Below are positions 2,146-11,193 of a DNA stretch of 11,393 bases, piece by piece. The notes under the pieces were generated by a model. That model saw nothing but the letters and a program-made list of their open reading frames with translations, was not told where the DNA came from and made no database searches. The stretch comes from an uncultured Bacteroidales bacterium. Its GTDB lineage: Bacteria > Bacteroidota > Bacteroidia > Bacteroidales > UBA932. Location of the stretch: positions 1 through 11,393 of the forward strand of contig CAMOGR010000096.1 of assembly GCA_946614205.1 (NCBI GenBank), given 5' to 3'. The first letter of the stretch is position 1. Each line of letters starts with the position of its first letter. The translations under genes and the position numbers were made by a program.

Positions 2146-2153
2146 TATATTTG
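2146..2153 (+). promoter_or_regulatory. -7 promoter box for the putative metal-uptake operon (TATATTTG)
   Basis: TATATTTGC matches the Bacteroidota -7 consensus and lies in the 25-base gap between rsgA and the next gene, ending 11 bases before its ATG at 2165. It suggests the metal-uptake genes have their own promoter rather than depending on read-through from rsgA. No -33 TTG at standard spacing and no Fur- or Zur-like palindrome is evident. Confidence 0.55.
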
Positions 2154-2164
2154 CACCCGGACTT

Positions 2165-2518
2165 ATGGAAAGGAGACGACGCATATTTTCCGCCTTGCTG
2201 CTGGCAGTGTTCCTGCCGGCCTTCCTCGCGTCCGTTCTCCATACGCACCCGCAGGCTTCCGTGCAGCAGCCCGAATGCTTCCGGTGCGTCCATCATCTGC
2301 CTCATACAGGGCACCTCAGCGCAGCGGACGGAAGTCTGTCCAGCTGCGTCCAGTGCCATTTTCTCGGGCTTCCTTTCATAGCCTGCATCGCGGCGGTGTT
2401 CCTGCTGCCCGCAGAGGTCCGGTCGGCCTTCCGTGCCGTCTCCCGGGAGGCCCGCATATCCTTACATCTCCGTCTCAACCATTCCCGCGCTCCTCCTGTT
2501 TTCTCTGCAGTACAGTAA
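2165..2518 (+). CDS. Small Cys/His-rich membrane protein preceding a TonB-dependent receptor
   Basis: A 117-residue protein of a kind I associate with Bacteroidota genes upstream of metal-type TonB-dependent receptors, but for which I know no name or proven function. Seen: a basic N-terminus (RRRR at 3-6); a first hydrophobic segment at about 8-25 that could be a signal anchor; then HTH at 26-28; a Cys/His-rich stretch with Cys38-x2-Cys41, His43, His44, His47 and His50; a second pair Cys61-x2-Cys64 followed by His65; a second hydrophobic segment at about 66-83; and a basic C-terminal tail. Two CxxC pairs and seven nearby His form a plausible metal- or redox-active patch between the membrane segments. 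It is 29 bases upstream of the receptor gene and probably its operon leader. A role in metal sensing or hand-off is inference. The ATG is supported by the promoter box and the N-terminal membrane segment. Confidence 0.75.
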   Translation: MERRRRIFSALLLAVFLPAFLASVLHTHPQASVQQPECFRCVHHLPHTGHLSAADGSLSSCVQCHFLGLPFIACIAAVFLLPAEVRSAFRAVSREARISLHLRLNHSRAPPVFSAVQ

Positions 2519-2547
2519 TATTCAAGAGAAAATTTAAACAGGAAAGT

Positions 2548-4629
2548 ATGATTGCAACCCTCCTGGCTGCGGTCATGCTGCTGCAGGTACAGGATACCAC
2601 CGAGGTCCTCGGCCCGGCCGCCATATACGGCGAGTCGAAACGCCGGGAACTCATGCACCTTACCGTCGGCAGCGTGGAAGTCGGCCGGAATTACATAGAG
2701 AACAATTTCTCCGGAACCCTAATGCAGAGCCTGAGCGCCATCCCCGGCGTGCAGGCGCGGTCCATAGGCTCCGGGCAGTCCAAGCCCGCCATCCGCGGAC
2801 TGGGGTTCAACCGCATTGCAGTGGCCGTGGACGGCATCAAGCACGAAGGCCAGCAGTGGGGTGACGACCATGGCCTCGAGATAGACCAGTTCGCCGTAGA
2901 CCGCATAGAGGTCATAAAGGGCCCCGGGGCGCTGATGTACGGTTCCGACGCCATAGGCGGCGTGTTGGGAGTGTATACGAACTATCTGCCGCTTGAAGCC
3001 TTCGAAGGCAGGGTCAACCTCTTCGGACGAAGCAACAACCTGTCCGCAGGCATCTCCACCCGTCTTCAGGGACGAAGCGGCCATTTCTTCTGGCGGCTGC
3101 ATCTTACCGGGACGGATTATGCCGACTACAAAGTACCCGCGGACGAGATTGAGTATTACTCCTACCGGATCCCGCTGCTGAACGGAACGCTCCGTAATAC
3201 GGCCGGTCGCGAGGCCGATGCCTCCCTTACGCTGGGCTACGTCGGCGAGCGCTTCCGCAACGATTTCAAGGTCTCCGACACCTGGGGCAAGAGCGGATTC
3301 TTCGCCAACGCCCACGGGCTCGAGGTGCGCCTGTCCGACATCGACTACGATTCTTCCCGGCGGGACGTCGACCTGCCGAGTCAGAGCGTGAACCATCTTA
3401 CCGTCCACAACCATTCCCACCTGCACGGTGACGGATTCACCGTCGACGGTGACGTGGCATGGCAATGGAATCACCGGCAGGAACGTTCGGAGCCGGTCTC
3501 CCACGGCTACATGGGCGTGCCTCCGGACGACCTGGAGAGGGATTTTAGCAAGCATACCCTTACCGGAAAACTCGGCACCAAGGTAGACCTGTCCCGCCGG
3601 AACCAGCTGCAGGTTGGGGCGGATGCCGAATTCCAGCACAACCGCAGGGGCGGCTGGGGCTTCATCATTCCCGACTTCGAGACTCTTTCCGGAGGCGTCT
3701 TCGCCATTGACCGGCATACCTTCTCGGAGGTGCTGAATGTAAATGCAGGAGTGCGTTACGACCATGTCCTCACCTCGATTCACGCCTACCGGGACTGGTA
3801 CATGACGCCTGACGAAAGCGGAGTGCCCGTCTTCAAGGAACGCTCCGGGGAAGTGGCGCGCCGCTTCGACAGTTTCACCTGGTCTGCGGGAGTCGTATGG
3901 AGCCCGGGCCGGTGGGTGCTCAAGGCCAATGCCGGCAAGAGCTTCCGCGTCCCCATTCCCAAGGAACTCGGAGCGGACGGCGTGAACTATCACATCTTCC
4001 GTTACGAAAAAGGCTCGCCCGACCTGGAATCGGAACAGTCGTACCAGGTCGACCTGGGCGTCAACTGGGTGGGGGAGCGGCTTACGCTCCGGCTGGACCC
4101 TTTCTTCAACTGGTTCCCCAACTACATCTACCTCAATCCGGGTTCCGGTTACTACGAGGGGCTGCAGATGTACACCTACACGCAGGCGCAGGTGCTTCGT
4201 ACCGGGTTCGAGGCTCAGGCCGTCTGGACCGTGACGGAGCACTGGGAACTGGAGGCGCAGGGCGAATATCTCTTCGCCCGCCAGATGTCCGGTGCCAAGA
4301 AGGGCTACACCCTGCCTTTCTGCCCTCCGTGGAAGGCGGATGTGAGTGCAAAATATGCTTTCCTCAGTGACGGTTTCGTGAAACTGGACGTCCGCATTGC
4401 CGGAGCCAGGAAGGAAATCGTCCCTCCCGAAAAACCGACCGACGGTTGGTATACCGTCAACCTCTCTGCCGGGAAGTCCTTCTCCTTCGGAGGCCTCCGG
4501 CTAAAAACCAGCCTGCAGGTGGAAAACCTCCTGAACAGGCGGTATTACGACCATACAAGCTATTACAGACTCATCGGAGTCCCCGAGCCCGGCATCAACG
4601 CCTCGCTCATGCTGGGACTCGAATTTTAG
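2548..4629 (+). CDS. TonB-dependent outer-membrane receptor, probably for a metal ion or metal complex
   Basis: A 693-residue outer-membrane receptor powered by TonB-ExbBD. Seen: a short hydrophobic N-terminus (ATLLAAVMLL, residues 3-12); a plug domain at about 45-150 with SGTLMQSLSAIPGVQ, KPAIRGLGFNRIAV and VDRIEVIKGPGALMYGSDAIGGV; then a long beta-barrel ending in LMLGLEF with a terminal Phe, the usual barrel signature. It lacks the carboxypeptidase-like N-terminal extension of SusC-type glycan receptors. A His-rich stretch (His283, 287, 289, 291, 293) lies in what should be an extracellular loop, and the plug contains GIKHEGQQWGDDHG. Both resemble features of zinc receptors such as ZnuD, so zinc or another transition metal is favoured, though heme cannot be excluded. 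The frame is open back to 2275 but that part overlaps the preceding gene. ATG 2548 gives a signal peptide without basic residues, so the start is slightly uncertain. The lipoprotein gene follows after 11 bases. Confidence 0.9.
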   Translation: MIATLLAAVMLLQVQDTTEVLGPAAIYGESKRRELMHLTVGSVEVGRNYIENNFSGTLMQSLSAIPGVQARSIGSGQSKPAIRGLGFNRIAVAVDGIKHEGQQWGDDHGLEIDQFAVDRIEVIKGPGALMYGSDAIGGVLGVYTNYLPLEAFEGRVNLFGRSNNLSAGISTRLQGRSGHFFWRLHLTGTDYADYKVPADEIEYYSYRIPLLNGTLRNTAGREADASLTLGYVGERFRNDFKVSDTWGKSGFFANAHGLEVRLSDIDYDSSRRDVDLPSQSVNHLTVHNHSHLHGDGFTVDGDVAWQWNHRQERSEPVSHGYMGVPPDDLERDFSKHTLTGKLGTKVDLSRRNQLQVGADAEFQHNRRGGWGFIIPDFETLSGGVFAIDRHTFSEVLNVNAGVRYDHVLTSIHAYRDWYMTPDESGVPVFKERSGEVARRFDSFTWSAGVVWSPGRWVLKANAGKSFRVPIPKELGADGVNYHIFRYEKGSPDLESEQSYQVDLGVNWVGERLTLRLDPFFNWFPNYIYLNPGSGYYEGLQMYTYTQAQVLRTGFEAQAVWTVTEHWELEAQGEYLFARQMSGAKKGYTLPFCPPWKADVSAKYAFLSDGFVKLDVRIAGARKEIVPPEKPTDGWYTVNLSAGKSFSFGGLRLKTSLQVENLLNRRYYDHTSYYRLIGVPEPGINASLMLGLEF

Positions 4630-4640
4630 AATGCTGAATA

Positions 4641-5150
4641 ATGAAAAAGATTATCTTGGCTCTCGCAGCGTCAGTTGCCATAATATCCCTCACTTTCTCC
4701 TGCGAAGGCGTTTCCGCCGACAAGGACATGACACCTCCCGAAATACTCCCCATCGGGGACTATGCGTCGCCCCTCAACTGCCAGGGCTTCGTCAGGGGCA
4801 GCGTGATGCAATTCGCATATCTATTCACGGACAACGTGGAACTCGGTTCGTTCAATATCGAGGTCCACAACAACTTCGACCATCATACGCACAGTACCGA
4901 GGCCGGCGAGTGCGAGTCTGACCACGACCATGATCATGGGCATGGGGAGAGCCCGGTGAATCCTTGGGTGTTCAACCGGGATTACACCATCCCGGCAGGC
5001 AGCACCAGCTATGAGGCACGGCTCGAAATCCCCATCCCCGAGGATGTGGATGAGGGTACCTATCATTTCATGATTCGCGTTACCGACACCTCGGGATGGC
5101 AGCAGCTGCGTTCCGTGGGAATACGGATTCTCGAGGAGGCGGAAGACTAA
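4641..5150 (+). CDS. His-rich DUF4625-like lipoprotein, probable metal-binding partner of the receptor
   Basis: A 169-residue predicted lipoprotein. Seen: a Lys-Lys N-terminus, a hydrophobic segment at 4-19, and a lipobox-like LTFSC with Cys21 as the lipidated residue. A beta-rich Ig-like region follows, starting with DMTPPEILPIG and ending with YHFMIRVTDTSGW and RSVGIRILEE. Inside it lies a His/Asp/Glu-rich insertion at residues 76-103, with His at 76, 81, 82, 84, 95, 97, 99 and 101 and a Cys at 91. The opening TPP-I motif and overall shape suggest the DUF4625 family, assigned from memory. Such lipoproteins sit in the periplasm or on the surface of Bacteroidota. The His cluster is a strong sign of binding Zn2+, Ni2+, Cu2+ or Co2+. 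Position 11 bases after the receptor gene supports joint action: capturing metal and passing it to the receptor, or buffering it. The 3' end overlaps the opposing deaminase gene by 4 bases. Confidence 0.82.
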   Translation: MKKIILALAASVAIISLTFSCEGVSADKDMTPPEILPIGDYASPLNCQGFVRGSVMQFAYLFTDNVELGSFNIEVHNNFDHHTHSTEAGECESDHDHDHGHGESPVNPWVFNRDYTIPAGSTSYEARLEIPIPEDVDEGTYHFMIRVTDTSGWQQLRSVGIRILEEAED

Positions 5151-5605
5151 TAGTTCCTGTGTTCCAGGGACATATATTCGTCGAACAGTCGCAGGCATTC
5201 TTCCCGGTCCACCTCTTCCAGGAGGCCGGGGAGCTTGTCGCGGCCGCCGAACAGCTTGTCGAACTTGTCGTCGCGGAAGCCGATGCGCTCGTTGTCGGCA
5301 ATGGTGCAGCCGTAGTAAATCTTGTCTATATTGGCCCACAGGCATGCGCACAGGCACATGTGGCAGGGCTCGCCGGTGGTATACAGTTCGCAGCCGCTAA
5401 GGTCGTGGGTGCCAAGGCGCCGGCCGGCGTCACGTATGGCCGCCACTTCGCCGTGGCAGGTGGCGTCGTTGTCCCGCAGCACGCAGTTGTGGCCGCGGCC
5501 GACTATCTGTCCGTCCTTCACTATAACGGTGCCGAAGGGGCCGCCGTCTCCTTGTCTTATGCCCTCGCGCGCCTCGCGGATGGCAGTCTCCATAAACTTG
5601 TTCAT
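5147..5605 (-). CDS. guaD: Nucleoside deaminase of the cytidine deaminase-like superfamily, guanine deaminase type
   Basis: A 152-residue zinc deaminase. The closest match I recall is B. subtilis GuaD, which converts guanine to xanthine plus ammonia in purine salvage or catabolism. Seen: GGPFGTVIVKDGQIVG at 21-36, the zinc/catalytic motif HGE at 51-53 (His51 ligand, Glu53 proton shuttle), and PCHMC at 80-84 (Cys81 and Cys84 ligands), followed by the LWANIDKIYYG block and IGFRDDKF at 108-115, like the GFDD segment of GuaD. The length fits GuaD better than the tRNA adenosine deaminase TadA, but TadA-like or other nucleobase activity cannot be ruled out. HGE replaces the commoner HAE, a mild change. 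The ATG is supported by the family N-terminus and by a promoter box 4 bases upstream. It is divergent from the symporter operon; no partner purine genes are visible. Confidence 0.88.
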   Translation of the reverse strand: MNKFMETAIREAREGIRQGDGGPFGTVIVKDGQIVGRGHNCVLRDNDATCHGEVAAIRDAGRRLGTHDLSGCELYTTGEPCHMCLCACLWANIDKIYYGCTIADNERIGFRDDKFDKLFGGRDKLPGLLEEVDREECLRLFDEYMSLEHRNY

Positions 5606-5634: not shown

Positions 5635-5665
5635 TTGGGCATGTGAGAATAAATAACTAAATTTG
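5635..5665 (+). promoter_or_regulatory. Promoter of the symporter-porin operon (TTG, 20 bp, TAAATTTG)
   Basis: TTG at 5635-5637 and TAAATTTG at 5658-5665 are separated by 20 bases, giving both halves of the Bacteroidota -33/-7 promoter. This is the only complete two-part promoter I found in the window. The predicted start near 5670 leaves an AT-rich leader of about 30 bases before the ATG at 5699. The leader contains A-rich sequence (ATAACAAAATCAAAT) just before the start codon, as is common for translation initiation in this phylum. Confidence 0.72.
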
Positions 5666-5698
5666 CGCCGCTTTAATAGAGATATAACAAAATCAAAT

Positions 5699-7153
5699 AT
5701 GTCCAACGGAAAATTTTCTGTAAAGTATTGTGTGCTTCTGCCGCTGGTGCTGATAGTCACAATCCTTCTCTGGGCCCTCCCTACGTCTGTTTTCGGTATC
5801 GCGGACCTCACCCCCGTGCAGCAGAGGATGATAGCCATCTTCGTCTTCGCCGCCCTCATGTGGATGTTCGAAATCATCCCCAACTGGACCACTTCACTGC
5901 TTGTAATCGTCGTCATGCTGCTTACGGTCTCCAACAAGGGACTCAAGTTCTTCTGCATGCCCGAGGCCGGCACTCTCGTTGATTACAAGAGCATTATGGC
6001 TTCTTTCGCCGACCCTGTGGTGATGCTGTTCCTCGGAGGTTTCGTACTTGCCATCATAGCTTCAAAATACGGCATGGACGCCGTTATAGCCAAGGGACTC
6101 CTCAGCATTTTCGGCAGCAAGCCCAAGATGGTCCTCCTCGGTTTCCTCATCATCATCTCCATCTTCTCGATGTTCATGAGCAATACCGCCACGGCCGCCA
6201 TGATGCTTGCATTCCTCGCTCCCGTGCTCAAGACTCTTCCCGAGAATGAAACCGGAAAAATCGGCCTTGCCCTGTCGATACCCGTCGCGGCCAACCTCGG
6301 CGGCATCGGCACCCCCATCGGCACTCCTCCCAACGCAATAGCCATCGGCGCCCTCGAGAACGCCGGCTACCAGATAAGCTTCGCCACCTGGATGTCGAGG
6401 ATGATTCCGTACGTGATCGTCATGATACTCATAGCCTGGTTGCTCCTCCAGCTGTTCTTCCCCTTCAAGTCCGAGAAAATCGAGCTCAAGATAGAGGCCA
6501 AGCAGCACAAGTGGGCCTGGAAGGACTATGTGGCATGGATTACCTTCTTCGTGACCATTCTCCTCTGGGTTACCGAGTCCCTTACCGGCATCAATTCCAA
6601 CATCGTGGCGCTCATCCCTCTTGCCGTCTACACCTGCACCGGCGTGTTCGGCAAGGAAGACATCAAGGAAATCAACTGGAGCGTCCTCTGGCTCGTCGCC
6701 GGCGGCTTCGCGCTCGGAACCGGCCTCAACAAGACCGGCCTCGCAGCCACGCTCATCAACGCCATTCCGTTCAGCAGCATGAACGTGGTCCTGGTGCTCA
6801 TCATCGCCGGCCTCGTGTGCTACTTCCTTTCCAACTTCATCAGCAACTCCGCCACTGCCGCCCTCCTCGTCCCTATCCTCGTCGTCGTGGGTACCGCAAT
6901 GGCTGACCCTGCGGCTGCCAACAACGCCCAGTTCATGGCAATCGGCGGCATGGAGGCCATGATTCCGTTCATTGCAATGTGCGCTTCCATAGCCATGCTG
7001 TTCCCCATTTCCACGCCCCCGAACGCCATCGCTTCCTCCACCGGTCTGGTCCAGACCTCGCAGATGGCGAAGGTTGGCGCCATCATCGGCGTCGTAGGCT
7101 TCGTGCTGGGCTACTTCCTCCTTACCAAGATTTTCCCTTTCCCGATGTCTTAA
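5699..7153 (+). CDS. DASS/SLC13-family sodium-coupled anion (dicarboxylate) symporter
   Basis: A 484-residue inner-membrane transporter of the divalent anion:Na+ symporter family, whose members import succinate, fumarate, malate, citrate or sulfate. Seen: many hydrophobic segments and the two inverted family repeats with their signature hairpins. Repeat one has SNTATAAMM at 161-169 and GTPIGTPPN at 204-212; repeat two has SNSATAALL at 382-390 and STPPNAIA at 438-445. In the structurally known VcINDY, the paired SNT motifs hold Na+ and the substrate carboxylates; here the second is SNS, a conservative change. The dicarboxylate class is likely, but the exact substrate and direction cannot be read. 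The frame extends upstream to a TTG at 5663, but that codon lies inside the -7 box, so the ATG at 5699 is chosen. The porin gene follows after one base, suggesting a paired inner/outer-membrane route. Confidence 0.92.
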   Translation: MSNGKFSVKYCVLLPLVLIVTILLWALPTSVFGIADLTPVQQRMIAIFVFAALMWMFEIIPNWTTSLLVIVVMLLTVSNKGLKFFCMPEAGTLVDYKSIMASFADPVVMLFLGGFVLAIIASKYGMDAVIAKGLLSIFGSKPKMVLLGFLIIISIFSMFMSNTATAAMMLAFLAPVLKTLPENETGKIGLALSIPVAANLGGIGTPIGTPPNAIAIGALENAGYQISFATWMSRMIPYVIVMILIAWLLLQLFFPFKSEKIELKIEAKQHKWAWKDYVAWITFFVTILLWVTESLTGINSNIVALIPLAVYTCTGVFGKEDIKEINWSVLWLVAGGFALGTGLNKTGLAATLINAIPFSSMNVVLVLIIAGLVCYFLSNFISNSATAALLVPILVVVGTAMADPAAANNAQFMAIGGMEAMIPFIAMCASIAMLFPISTPPNAIASSTGLVQTSQMAKVGAIIGVVGFVLGYFLLTKIFPFPMS

Positions 7154-7154
7154 C

Positions 7155-8411
7155 ATGAAGAAGTTCATGATTGCAGCCGCAGCGCTGCTTGCTATATCCA
7201 CAGTCCTCTCCGCACAGGACCAGAAAGAGCCGCACTTCAAGTTATACGGCTTCGTGCGCAACTATTTCGCCTTCGACTCACGTGTCAGCACCGCCGGCAC
7301 CGAGGACCTCTACTACTGGATGCCCAAGGATGTCAAGATGGTCGGCGGCACCGACGTCAACGAGGCCCCCTCCTTCCGCTTCGCAGCCCTCACGTCCCGT
7401 CTCGGTGTAGATATAAGCGGCTACGAGTTCAGCGGCTACAAGGTGGGCGGCAAGTTCGAGGCCGACTTCTACGCAGGTCTTACCGGCAGCACCGGTACGG
7501 CCCAGCTGCGCCTCCGCCAGGCTTTCATTACCGTAGGCAAGGGCTCCCGCAGCTGGAAACTCGGCCAGGCATGGCATCCCATGGCAGCCGACCTCCCAGA
7601 CATTTTCTCGCTTGAGAGCGGCGCTCCCTTCGGCCCCTTCAGCCGCACCCCGCTGGTGCAGTTCGACTGGAAACTGACCGATGTCATGTCGCTCACTGCC
7701 GCCGCCATCTGGCAGATGCAGTACACCTCCACCGGCCCCGAGGGCGCCAGCGCCAATTACATCAAGTACGGCAGCACCCCCGAACTCTATGCCGGAATCA
7801 ACTTCAAGAGCGGCAAGACGACCCTGCGGCTCGGCGGCGACGTCCTGAGCATCAAGCCCCGCCAGGTCAGCGCCACCGGCCTTGCTGCAGACCGTCTCAC
7901 CACCTGGAGCGCATTCTTCTACGGTGCCACCTCCCTTGGCAAGCTCGACCTCAAGACCAAGCTTACCTATGCCAACGACGGCTCCCATTTCAACATGATA
8001 GGCGGATACGGCGTCACCGCAATCGACGAGACCACCGACAACTGGAGCTTCGCCGCCACGCGCGTCGCCTCCGGCTGGGCAACCCTCTCCTACAAGGGCC
8101 TCGGCCGCTGGGTTCCCTCCATCCTGCTGGGTTACTCCAAGCTCCTCGGTACGAGTGTCGACGTCCTGGGCGACAAGAACGCTTCCGGAGCCTGGATGTA
8201 CCGCTGGGTCAAGAACAGTGCCGATACCGTAAACACCCTCTTCCGTGTGCAGCCCGAGTTCATCTACAACCTCGGCAAGCTCCAGTTCGGCCTCGAGTAC
8301 ATGCTCACCGGAGCCAATTACGGAACTCCCAATACCCGCATGCTCGCCACGGACAACCTGCACCTGGTCATGAACCACCGCGTACAGGCGCTCGTAAGAC
8401 TCAATTTCTAG
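7155..8411 (+). CDS. Outer-membrane beta-barrel porin paired with the anion symporter
   Basis: A 418-residue secreted barrel protein. Seen: a clean signal peptide (MKKF plus a hydrophobic core, cleavage likely after Ala20 in TVLSAQDQ); then FKLYGFVRNYFAFDSR, typical of the first strand of Bacteroidota and DcaP-like porins; alternating polar/aromatic strands throughout, such as LRLRQAFITVGKGSRSWKLG; and a C-terminal strand VQALVRLNF ending in Phe, the usual BAM-recognised signature. Length suits a 16- to 18-strand porin. It has no plug domain, so it is not TonB-dependent. Its start lies one base after the symporter stop, so the two are almost certainly co-translated from one message. The context argues that it admits the symporter's anionic substrate across the outer membrane. 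Substrate selectivity is inference; a general or structural role is possible. Confidence 0.87.
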   Translation: MKKFMIAAAALLAISTVLSAQDQKEPHFKLYGFVRNYFAFDSRVSTAGTEDLYYWMPKDVKMVGGTDVNEAPSFRFAALTSRLGVDISGYEFSGYKVGGKFEADFYAGLTGSTGTAQLRLRQAFITVGKGSRSWKLGQAWHPMAADLPDIFSLESGAPFGPFSRTPLVQFDWKLTDVMSLTAAAIWQMQYTSTGPEGASANYIKYGSTPELYAGINFKSGKTTLRLGGDVLSIKPRQVSATGLAADRLTTWSAFFYGATSLGKLDLKTKLTYANDGSHFNMIGGYGVTAIDETTDNWSFAATRVASGWATLSYKGLGRWVPSILLGYSKLLGTSVDVLGDKNASGAWMYRWVKNSADTVNTLFRVQPEFIYNLGKLQFGLEYMLTGANYGTPNTRMLATDNLHLVMNHRVQALVRLNF

Positions 8412-8421
8412 ACCTCGGAAA

Positions 8422-11193
8422 ATGACTCCTTTTCTCCGACAGGTCGCGAGACACTATCATAACGGAGCCGGTGATTTGAGCCGGCTCTGTTTCGTTTTTC
8501 CCAACCGCAGGGCGCTGCGTTTCTTCGAGAATTACCTCGGGGAGGAGATAGCCGCTTCGGGTTCCGGCCCCGCCGTCGCTCCCGGAATGTACACGATGAA
8601 CGATTTCTTCTATCGTGCCACCGGCGAGCGTCCCTCCGGCCGCATCGACCTTCTGCTGGAGCTATACGGCTGCTACAAGGCGCTCAACCCGTCCGCCGAG
8701 CAGCTTGACGATTTCATATTCTGGGGCGACACCCTTCTGGGCGACTTCGACGACGTGGACAAGTATCTCGTCAATCCCGGGCACCTGTTCACCAACGTCT
8801 CCGACCTGAGGGAGATGCAGGACGACTATTCATACCTGACCGATACCCAGCGGGAGGCCATTCAGCGCTTCGTCCGCCATTTCCTCACCCCGGGTGCCGT
8901 GAAGGAGCGTTTCCTGGGTATATGGCGTATACTCCTGCCGCTTTACCGTTCGTTCCGGGAGACCCTGCGCTCCAAGGGGATGTCCTACGAAGGCATGGTG
9001 TACCGCGAGCTGGCGGAGAGCCTGGGCGAAGGGTCCGTGGCCGACCTGCTGCACTCGCGTTTCCCCTGGAGCGAACGATTTGTCTTCGTGGGCCTGAATG
9101 CGCTCAACGAGTGCGAAAAAACCCTGTTGCGCCGCATCCACAAGGCGGGCCTGTGCGAATTCTGCTGGGACTACCGGTCTGAACAGCTCCGCAACTCCGA
9201 CAACAAGTCGTCCCTGTTCCTCAGGGACTTCACGCTCGAGTTCCCTTCGTCTTTCCAGACCGACCCGGAAGGCCTTCCGCAGACCGAGTTCAACGTACTG
9301 AGCGTGCCCGGAGGCATCAGCCAGGCCAAGCAGATTCCGGATATCCTCGAGCGCTGCACTCCCAATCCCGGCATAGACACCGCCATCATACTGCCCGACG
9401 AGCAGCTGCTGATTCCGGTGCTCAATTCTATTCCGGCCCATGTGGAAAAGCTCAACGTAACCATGGGCTATCCCATCAGCGGCAGCCAGATGTGGGCGCT
9501 GCTCGGCGACCTTGCCGGGCTGCAGCTGCACCTCCGGCGCAAGGACGGAGGCTGGATGTTCTACCACCGTCCGGTGTGGGCGGTACTCTCCAACCCTATC
9601 GTTCGCAGTCTCCTTCCGGAGGATGTGCGTTCGGCTCTCGACGCCATGAGAGGGGAGCGCCGCTATTACATTCCCTCGGACGCATTCCCGTCCAGTCCCG
9701 TGCTCGGGGCAATTTTCCGCCCCGTAGCCCTGGACAACAATCCCGACGCCGCCCGGACCGCCGCGCTCTGCGGGTGGCTGCAGGATATACTCGTAACCGT
9801 CGCACCCATGCTCAAGGCCCTTCCCGGCATGCAGCTGGAGCTCGACTTCGCCAAGGTATGCCACGAGACGCTCGCCATGCTGGGCCGCAGGGAACTTCCC
9901 CTCGCGCCGGCGTCATTCTTCCGCCTGCTCACCCAGACGCTTGCTCCGGCCACCGTCCCGTTCGAGGGTGAACCGCTTGAAGGACTGCAGATCATGGGTC
10001 CGCTGGAGCTTCGTGCCCTCGATTTCGACAACCTTGTGATTCTCAGCGCAAACGAAGGCATGTTCCCTCGCCGTTCGGTGAGTTCATCTTTCATTCCTCC
10101 CGAGTTGCGCAAGGGCTTCGGGCTTCCGACCTACGAGTATCAGGACGCCGTCTGGGCTTACTACTTCTACCGTTCAATCCAGCGCGCGTCGAAGGTGTGG
10201 ATGGTGTTCGACTCCCGCACCGAGGGCCTAAGGGGAGGGGAACCCAGCCGCTACCTTGCCCAGCTCGAGATGCATTTCGGGGTGAAAGTCAACCACTATG
10301 AGGCCCATACGCCGCTGGGGCACGGCTCCGACAGCACGGAACCCGCAAAGACGCAGGCTCATCTGGATGCCCTGCGCTCGGGTTCGCTTTCCGTTTCCGC
10401 CGTGCGCTCGTACATAGCTTGCCCCGCCAGGTTTTTCTACTCCAAGGTCGAGGGTCTGAAGGCCGAGAACGAGGTCACGGAGTCGCTGGATTCCGGTACG
10501 CTCGGGCGTGTGCTCCACAGCACCATGGAGGCGCTCTATCCCGAGGGCACCGTGGCCGACGCTGCGTACATATCCGCCCTCCGCAAGGACAGCGGCCGTA
10601 TCCGCAGCCTCGTCGAGGAATTCATCTGCAAGGAGCTCAACACCTTCGAGGTCAGCGGACGCAACATAATCTTCGCAGACGTCATCTGCAGTTACGTCGA
10701 CGCCATTCTTTCCGCCGACCTCCGCACTCTGCCTTCCGGCGGTTCGCTTCGGATACTCGGAGTCGAGAAGCTGGGATACACTACGATAGGCTCCTTCCGT
10801 TTCAAGGGCTTTATCGACAGGCTCGACAGCACCGGAAACGGCAGCGTGAGGGTGGTGGACTACAAGACAGGCCGGGTGAATCCCGAAGACCTGCATTTTG
10901 ACGAAGGCAGCGGCGACATTCCCGAAATTGGCCTGCAACTGTATGTATACAAGCTTATTGCGTCCTCGCTTCGAAGCGGCTCCGAAGTCACCGGGGCCAT
11001 CTACCAGCCCGCTGTGCTGATGGGCGGCGGGGACGTTTTCTCCCTGTCTCTCGACGACGCCTACTGTTCCCGGATGCACGACTCCCTGGGAGCCGTACTC
11101 GAGGAAATCTCCGACCTGTCCGTTCCCTGGCGGCGCACGGACGATGAAGGCAAATGCAAGTATTGTGATTTCAGAGCCATCTGCGGACGATGA
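8422..11193 (+). CDS. addB: AddB-like Fe-S PD-(D/E)XK nuclease subunit of a double-strand-break repair helicase-nuclease
   Basis: A 923-residue cytoplasmic protein, the AddB half of an AddAB/RecBCD-type enzyme that resects DNA ends for RecA loading. Seen: an N-terminal helicase-like region beginning [17 protein letters not shown] (23-39), where a functional AddB P-loop would be expected but no GxGKT is present, so the helicase fold is probably structural. The C-terminal nuclease has His699 in GRVLHSTME, Asp799 in GFIDRLD, and Asp813/Lys815 in VVDYKTG. The Fe-S cluster cysteines are complete: Cys667 ([10 protein letters not shown]), then Cys912, Cys915 and Cys921 near the C-terminus, giving the AddB pattern of one distant Cys plus C-x2-C-x5-C. 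It begins 10 bases after the porin stop and overlaps the helicase gene, so it may be transcribed with the transport genes or from an internal promoter I cannot see. Confidence 0.9.

Follow-up and report, generated by a model that had tools for sequence, protein, structure and literature searches.

The 11,393-nt window analysed here (positions 1 to 11,393 of contig CAMOGR010000096.1, assembly GCA_946614205.1, from an uncultured Bacteroidales bacterium of the lineage UBA932) contains a tight cassette of three genes. They code for a small protein with two CxxC pairs and a His cluster, a TonB-dependent receptor and a DUF4625 lipoprotein (Table 1). All three lie on the plus strand, with gaps of 29 nt between the first and second and 11 nt between the second and third gene. 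A preliminary description of this DNA had read the cassette as an outer-membrane metal-capture system; its open reading frame (ORF) coordinates and named motifs agreed with the sequence, including the eight His within residues 76-101 of the lipoprotein. Absent from that description was an RAPP motif in the C-terminus of the small protein, SRAPPVFSAVQ. We propose, with a probability of roughly two in three, that the cassette is a self-regulated zinc-import operon whose first gene is a ribosome-stalling leader.

Table 1 Features of the three-gene cassette, in positions of the window
Feature	Position	Strand	Evidence or remark
Promoter box TATATTTG, Bacteroides-type TAnnTTTG	2146..2153	+	Sequence; starts 19 nt before leader ATG
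Leader ORF, 117 aa, CruR/CutF-like presumed arrest peptide	2165..2518	+	Two CxxC, His cluster, C-terminal RAPP
Leader, first CxxC (C38-C41)	2276..2287	+	Each Cys in 84 % of 56 aligned sequences
Leader, His cluster HHLPHTGH (residues 43-50)	2291..2314	+	H50 invariant in 56 sequences
Leader, second CxxC, C61 and C64 (residues 61-64)	2345..2356	+	Invariant; 43 residues before RAPP
Leader, RAPP codons (R108-P111), presumed ribosome arrest site	2486..2497	+	Conservation; analogy to CruR
Two predicted RNA hairpins	2498..2578	+	2498-2533 over leader stop; 2546-2578 over receptor start codon
TonB-dependent receptor, 693 aa, nearest solved relative ZnuD	2548..4629	+	Pfam, NCBIfam, PDB profile search, Foldseek
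Receptor, His stretch H-x3-H-x-H-x-H-x-H (residues 283-293)	3394..3426	+	Only H283 and H289 conserved
DUF4625 lipoprotein, 169 aa	4641..5150	+	Pfam; Ig-like beta fold model
Lipoprotein, DHDHDHGH loop, variable	4920..4943	+	Alignment of 44 sequences

A search with the receptor as query returned 300 relatives, of which the 80 nearest loci, with titles from Bacteroidales and Prevotellaceae, were analysed; the nearest receptor had 88 % identity. All three genes were present in 76 of these loci, more than expected by chance, and the co-occurrence suggested in the preliminary description was thus observed. The receptor, being the query, is present in every locus by construction. DUF4625 was found in 78 loci and was missing in L013, where the contig ends inside the receptor, and in L053 (L numbers denote individual loci). 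The RAPP leader was likewise present in 78 loci, adjoining the receptor in 77; it was missing in L037 and in L062, whose contig begins 317 nt before the receptor. In the remaining locus, L064, the intact leader lies about 2 kb upstream; the copy beside the receptor is truncated and lacks RAPP (3318-3713 and 5747-5962). In two loci a single receptor is preceded by two tandem leader ORFs, each with CxxC and RAPP (L070, 5154-5957; L079, 282-1109). In at least 26 of the 80 loci a second, weaker match to the DUF4625 profile lies beside the first, usually a divergent lipoprotein between receptor and DUF4625. The genes flanking the unit differed by eye across the eight loci compared. In 295 Bacteroidales genomes the leader profile matched in 44 and DUF4625 in 65 (58 over the cut-off); 17 genomes had both, in 12 of them on the same contig within 4 kb.

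The conservation of the leader is concentrated in a few positions. Seven columns are invariant in 56 aligned sequences (H26, H50, C61, C64, R108, P110 and P111), and A109 is present in 93 %. R[AG]PP lies 1-13 residues before the stop in 82 of 83 leader ORFs from the window and the 80 loci, the exception being the truncated L064 copy; as these ORFs were chosen by a homology profile, and L026 and L074 by RAPP itself, this count is not fully independent. The CxxC-to-RAPP distance in the 82 RAPP leaders is 42 (2 leaders), 43 (69) or 44 (11) residues. The linker itself (residues 72-107) has a mean majority fraction of 0.24 versus 0.98 for RAPP in the 56 sequences, and its length varies by one insertion column used by 9 of the 56 and by one gap. 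A fixed length without a fixed sequence is expected if the distance from the peptidyl-transferase centre matters. The N-terminus is basic, then hydrophobic, as seen in the alignment. DUF2946 (PF11162) matched 31 of the 56 relatives at E-values up to 1, the best being 2.4e-5; any other family matched two at most.

The operon CruR-BfrG(CrtA)-Bp2921 of Bordetella pertussis also starts with a small CxxC ORF with a C-terminal RAPP, followed by a TonB-dependent receptor (PMC9426467, PMC12914433). Changes in the RAPP of CruR abolish expression of the next gene and changes in its CXXC abolish copper control (PMC9426467), and arrest at RAPP was demonstrated in vitro (PMC12992588). The spacing is 45 residues in CruR (PMC9426467) against 43 in the window, close to the distance of about 45 residues that marks CruR-type leaders, and in most relatives this spacing is two or three residues shorter than in CruR. 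The operon studied here differs in having usually two CxxC and a His cluster in the leader, a ZnuD-like receptor, relatives linked to zinc rather than copper, a gap of 29 instead of 162 nt after the leader, and a DUF4625 lipoprotein in place of PepSY_TM as third gene. CutF-CutO-CutG of Rhodobacter capsulatus resembles the cassette in its short leader, which is exported there and presumably here, in the PP close to the end of this leader and in a stem-loop, predicted in the window, ahead of the following gene (PMC9973294). The window leader falls within the limits used for CutF-like proteins: 117 aa (<150), P110-P111 of 117 for a PP within 15 residues of the C-terminus, and a same-strand receptor 29 nt downstream (<1000) (PMC9973294). 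CutF follows a similar principle with opposite sign, through a stem-loop over the next start; it switches the next gene on with copper, unlike the logic proposed here (PMC9973294). The list of CutF-like proteins contains many Bacteroidota members and TonB neighbours, and the word zinc is absent from the available text of that paper (PMC9973294). The RAPP-type arrest peptides and SecM (RAGP) are also short and carry a RAPP-like motif close to the C-terminus; they are exported and, unlike the cassette leader, precede sec/yidC genes and monitor protein localization (PMC10987492, PMC12992588).

Since a CxxC with a spaced C-terminal RAPP is the anatomy of CruR, the first gene is most likely a metal-sensing arrest-peptide leader rather than a working protein. 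Of the two roles that had been offered for the small protein, sensing or accepting metal, its conserved anatomy favours sensing, carried out by a nascent chain that is still ribosome-bound, and disfavours a working acceptor. A periplasmic or membrane metal binder fed by the receptor, with RAPP as an incidental feature, could account for the hydrophobic N-terminus, the many possible ligands and the shared operon, but it is very improbable for a protein whose most conserved stretch is RAPP, near the stop and at a fixed spacing over an unconserved linker. Moreover, few ORFs have R[AG]PP among their last 20 residues: 6 of 7569 (60-250 aa, not matching the leader profile), two of which are the leaders of L137 and L147.

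The leader profile includes the RAPP columns, so its matches are partly circular, and the search was therefore restarted from DUF4625 in genomes without a leader match at E 0.001. The set analysed comprised 20 places in 19 genomes; other such places, for example those in genomes G165, G286 and G288, lie outside it. The receptor was present in 17 of the 20 loci, and 12 of these 17 had a small ORF ending in R[AG]PP. In 11 of the 12 a C-x-x-C/H/R lies 44 residues before RAPP, in L136 42 residues, and 10 matched the leader profile once the search was restricted to these loci. A RAPP ORF was also present in L140, whose contig begins inside the operon. Three loci carry the leader between the receptor and the DUF4625 gene (L133, 2898-3233; L137, 2054-2389; L146, 5368-5703); in L133 and L137 the CxxC reads CPIH. 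Among 30 loci collected from the leader, a receptor-like ORF adjoined it in 29, in five of these with weak similarity only (E 1e-9 to 1e-5); the one remaining locus ends too early to show a receptor; 29 of the 30 leaders read R[AG]PP and L089 reads RGPC.

The receptor has the Pfam plug and barrel domains. Its profile retrieved ZnuD with 108 bits from the PDB, followed by Cir (56), ShuA (53) and OprC (46), and ZnuD entries filled the first four Foldseek rows for the AlphaFold2 model (pLDDT 77). A resemblance of the receptor to ZnuD was also stated in the preliminary description. With the NCBIfam ZnuD model (NF038289) the window receptor reached 115 of the 950 bits required. In both sequence and profile searches D107-H108 of the plug aligns with a D-H of ZnuD in the same register; the chain numbering is offset by 14 (length 748, range ending at 734), which makes the aligned His H100, and the Asp next to it is presumably a metal ligand. 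The zinc site of ZnuD of Neisseria (4rdr, 4rdt, 4rvw) is listed as D90/H100/E340/H499 (PMC4557270). E340 falls outside the aligned stretches. D/E107-H108 is present in all 102 receptor entries with DUF4625 in the locus, as are H283 and H319, with H256 in 100 and H99 in 96. The 40 entries without DUF4625 have His at H99 in 8, at H256 in 11 and at H319 in 13 cases; some of all these entries are overlapping copies of the same locus, and roughly 10 of the 40 stop short of an existing DUF4625 gene.

The heme-receptor models TIGR01785 and TIGR01786 gave the window receptor 136 and 128 bits, more than ZnuD, all three far below their cut-offs. The barrel has a region resembling the FRxP...H...GNxxL motif of heme receptors. 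Import of heme or a heme-like ligand, with the lipoprotein as hemophore and the leader sensing another metal or heme, would explain these similarities; we give it a slim chance, since neither heme score reaches its cut-off, ShuA stays at 53 bits where ZnuD has 108, and a regulator clade linked to zinc accompanies some of the cassettes. Over 39 relatives, all matched by ZnuD and by both heme models, the best E-value (6.7e-50) also belongs to ZnuD.

This regulator is a Fur-family gene found in the operon beside the leader or receptor in 8 of the 20 DUF4625-first loci. All nine such proteins scanned, none of them from the window, reached the Pfam FUR gathering score. Of three proteins scanned against the NCBIfam Zur equivalog model (cut-off 167 bits), two scored 27.3 and 16.4 bits and the third was not among the matches. 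The zinc link of the regulator rests on its neighbouring genes; an assignment as Fur, PerR or Zur was discarded, as the NCBIfam models do not separate these subtypes. A profile of 11 regulator proteins detected 24 close members (E below 1e-40) in the 295 genomes. Of these members, 16 have a receptor of the cassette family within about 1.5 kb, in part by construction. Seven of the other eight are neighbours of a ZIP or COG0523/CobW gene (Pfam); the eighth, L171, lies at the end of a contig and shows neither. L143 holds cassette, regulator, CobW and MerC together. Six more distant members include two that precede ZnuA by Pfam (L176, L177), two that precede a ZnuA-like ORF identified by eye (L178, L180) and two with neither (L175, L179). 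Genes for COG0523 proteins and for TonB receptors recur among the targets of Zur (PMC6103462).

Genome content was compared in 20 genomes with cassette relatives. COX1 and Cu-oxidase_3 were each detected in 0 of the 20, whose completeness is not known, with controls positive in 8 of 14 each; as far as these two enzyme families go, copper thus has no evident use. The same 20 genomes, each of which has the leader by construction, yielded no member of the close regulator clade (best E 2.8e-26), and in 20 loci read for the more distant Fur-family genes (17 of the 20 genomes) no ZIP, COG0523 or ZnuA match was adjacent. One such gene, in L198, lies beside a CDF-like ORF by eye. Leader and regulator were considered as substitutes for each other: a Fur gene occurs in 4 of 12 leader loci and in 4 of 5 leaderless ones, too few for a claim of replacement. 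L172 has, next to a receptor-like ORF and a gene of the Fur family, a His-rich small ORF (2171-2527) that is reminiscent in outline of the CutF-like clusters with His only.

The same arrest mechanism could serve copper, with the leader sensing and the receptor importing it, on the model of the CruR-BfrG/CrtA operon. In CruR the motif that responds to copper is CxxC (PMC9426467), the leaders have weak similarity to DUF2946, and OprC is among the structural relatives of the receptor. We nevertheless regard copper as unlikely. OprC scores 46 bits against 108 for ZnuD, and Cu-class RAPP upstream ORFs are reported missing in Bacteroidota, the TonB class being general in Gram-negatives (PMC12992588). 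The regulator clade beside ZIP and COG0523 genes and the absence of COX1 and Cu-oxidase_3 in genomes of unknown completeness favour zinc over copper. The co-occurrence, the search from DUF4625, the ZnuD relation and the regulator neighbours agree with the earlier suggestion of one metal pathway, with zinc favoured. Zinc is our best guess for the metal, from evidence of association.

The lipoprotein belongs to DUF4625 (PF15418, 121.3 bits at a gathering score of 27) and has Cys21 in a lipobox-like stretch recognized by eye. Its model is all-beta and Ig-like (pLDDT 85); an identification by Foldseek failed on generic Ig-like matches, with query TM-scores up to 0.52 among the 50 rows listed. C47, H76, H81, H82, H84, C91 and H142 are among the residues invariant in 44 sequences, and with them the motif HxxxxHHxH, while the HDHDHDHGHG loop varies. 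This loop and the His run of the receptor were dismissed as the functional core, neither being conserved. The idea that three folds were independently enriched in metal ligands is weakened accordingly: ligand-rich motifs exist in each, but the most striking His runs are unconserved. No paper mentioning DUF4625 was found in the literature searched.

That the operon has its own promoter box was confirmed. TAnnTTTG, to which the operator search was limited, precedes 61 of 82 leaders at a distance of up to 150 nt, compared to 6.4 expected from mononucleotide shuffles. Measured from their first base, 26 of the 69 sites lie 12-19 nt and 46 no more than 38 nt ahead of the chosen start codon. As the window box ends 11 nt before the ATG, transcription starts probably a few bases before the leader ORF. 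The median distance from leader stop to receptor ATG is 60 nt (78 cases). In 65 loci with short gaps the RNA segment that begins before RAPP and ends at the receptor start exceeds shuffled sequences in stability (mean z -2.2; controls -0.5 and -0.1 in the receptor body and -1.1 at its end). The gain in accessibility with a stalled ribosome is small, 0.066 versus 0.024 for shuffled sequences; accessibility rises in 38 of the 65 loci and falls in 17. The hairpin was not accepted as proof of a CutF-like mechanism; it is stable but shows no compensatory change in 12 sequences, and we treat it as a lead. Likewise a lead only, the excess of C over G before RAPP (+0.12 versus -0.02 in the receptor body) would fit a Rho site.

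In the proposed mechanism a ribosome translating the leader would stall at RAPP, as demonstrated for CruR, and the stall would keep the downstream mRNA usable, either by shielding it from Rho or by preventing a hairpin over the receptor start. A metal, most likely zinc, would bind the CxxC of the growing peptide, which at that moment is 46-49 residues away from the peptidyl-transferase centre and thus about at the ribosome exit; a second CxxC/His cluster may help in binding. Metal binding would release the stall and lead to termination, turning off receptor and lipoprotein, so that the importer would be made under metal scarcity only. The ZnuD-like receptor would move the metal across the outer membrane, and the lipoprotein may capture the metal or hand it over via HxxxxHHxH. 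Tentatively, with slightly less than even odds, the leader may be a zinc-responsive arrest peptide whose two-CxxC/His site is placed at the ribosome exit. It would work together with a Zur-type repressor in some Bacteroidales; in some loci this repressor is alone, and in the lineage of the window, where 20 genomes yielded no close relative of it, the leader would be the only regulator seen at the operon.

Several observations weigh against this interpretation. Besides the higher heme-model scores of the receptor, H499 of ZnuD aligns to N480, with H482 two residues off, and is not conserved at this column. An identification of the receptor by fold was given up: VIA-align places BtuB, PirA, FecA, ZnuD and others within about 2 Z, so fold alone cannot choose among receptors. 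The window leader stays below the gathering score of DUF2946 (11.6 of 23.7 bits, E 0.5) and is not classed as a member. The CruR and CutF leaders studied in the cited papers respond to copper (PMC9426467, PMC9973294). The zinc-linked regulator was not found in the window or the 80 nearest loci with a profile of three genes, and of the 20 genomes with cassette relatives 1 has ZnuA and 14 have ZIP. No RAPP ORF was detected in 5 of the 17 DUF4625-receptor loci (L132, L138, L141, L143, L144), and RNAalifold found no covariation in the hairpin of 12 sequences. Finally, a DUF4625 match is absent in 27 of the 44 leader-positive genomes, from which it follows that the leader family serves other receptors too. 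In seven loci (L119-L121, L124, L126-L128) leaders of the same family precede sister receptors with E-H instead of D-H in the plug and no DUF4625 in reach; these leaders may serve another metal.

Upstream of the cassette are a polyprenyl synthetase (244-1206) and RsgA (1207-2139), downstream a deaminase on the opposite strand (5147-5605). A DASS-family anion symporter (5663-7153; TIGR00785 over cut-off) is directly followed by a DcaP-like outer-membrane protein (7155-8411; Pfam score slightly above cut-off); the two may form an outer/inner membrane pair that handles an organic anion. A 923-aa ORF (8422-11193) and the start of an ORF with a Walker A motif (SAGSGKT, from 11193) look by eye like an AddB/AddA-type pair.

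We know of no leader or lipoprotein partner of ZnuD. CutF-like leaders of Bacteroidota and RAPP leaders ahead of Gram-negative TonB receptors already appear in surveys (PMC9973294, PMC12992588, PMC10987492), and the CrtA copper receptor family is described as mostly beta- and gamma-proteobacterial (PMC12914433). Neither a zinc-responsive arrest peptide nor an account of this cassette was found in the literature searched, which leaves out most subscription journals. Large numbers of RAPP leaders before TonB receptors are known; one linked to zinc would be a novelty. Nascent-chain sensing is tied experimentally to copper in the cited papers. If the proposal is true, abundant Bacteroidales of rumen, mouth and gut would control zinc import by a peptide sensed on the ribosome, the DUF4625 family would gain a role and testable partners, and attention would move from the striking His runs to a small invariant site.

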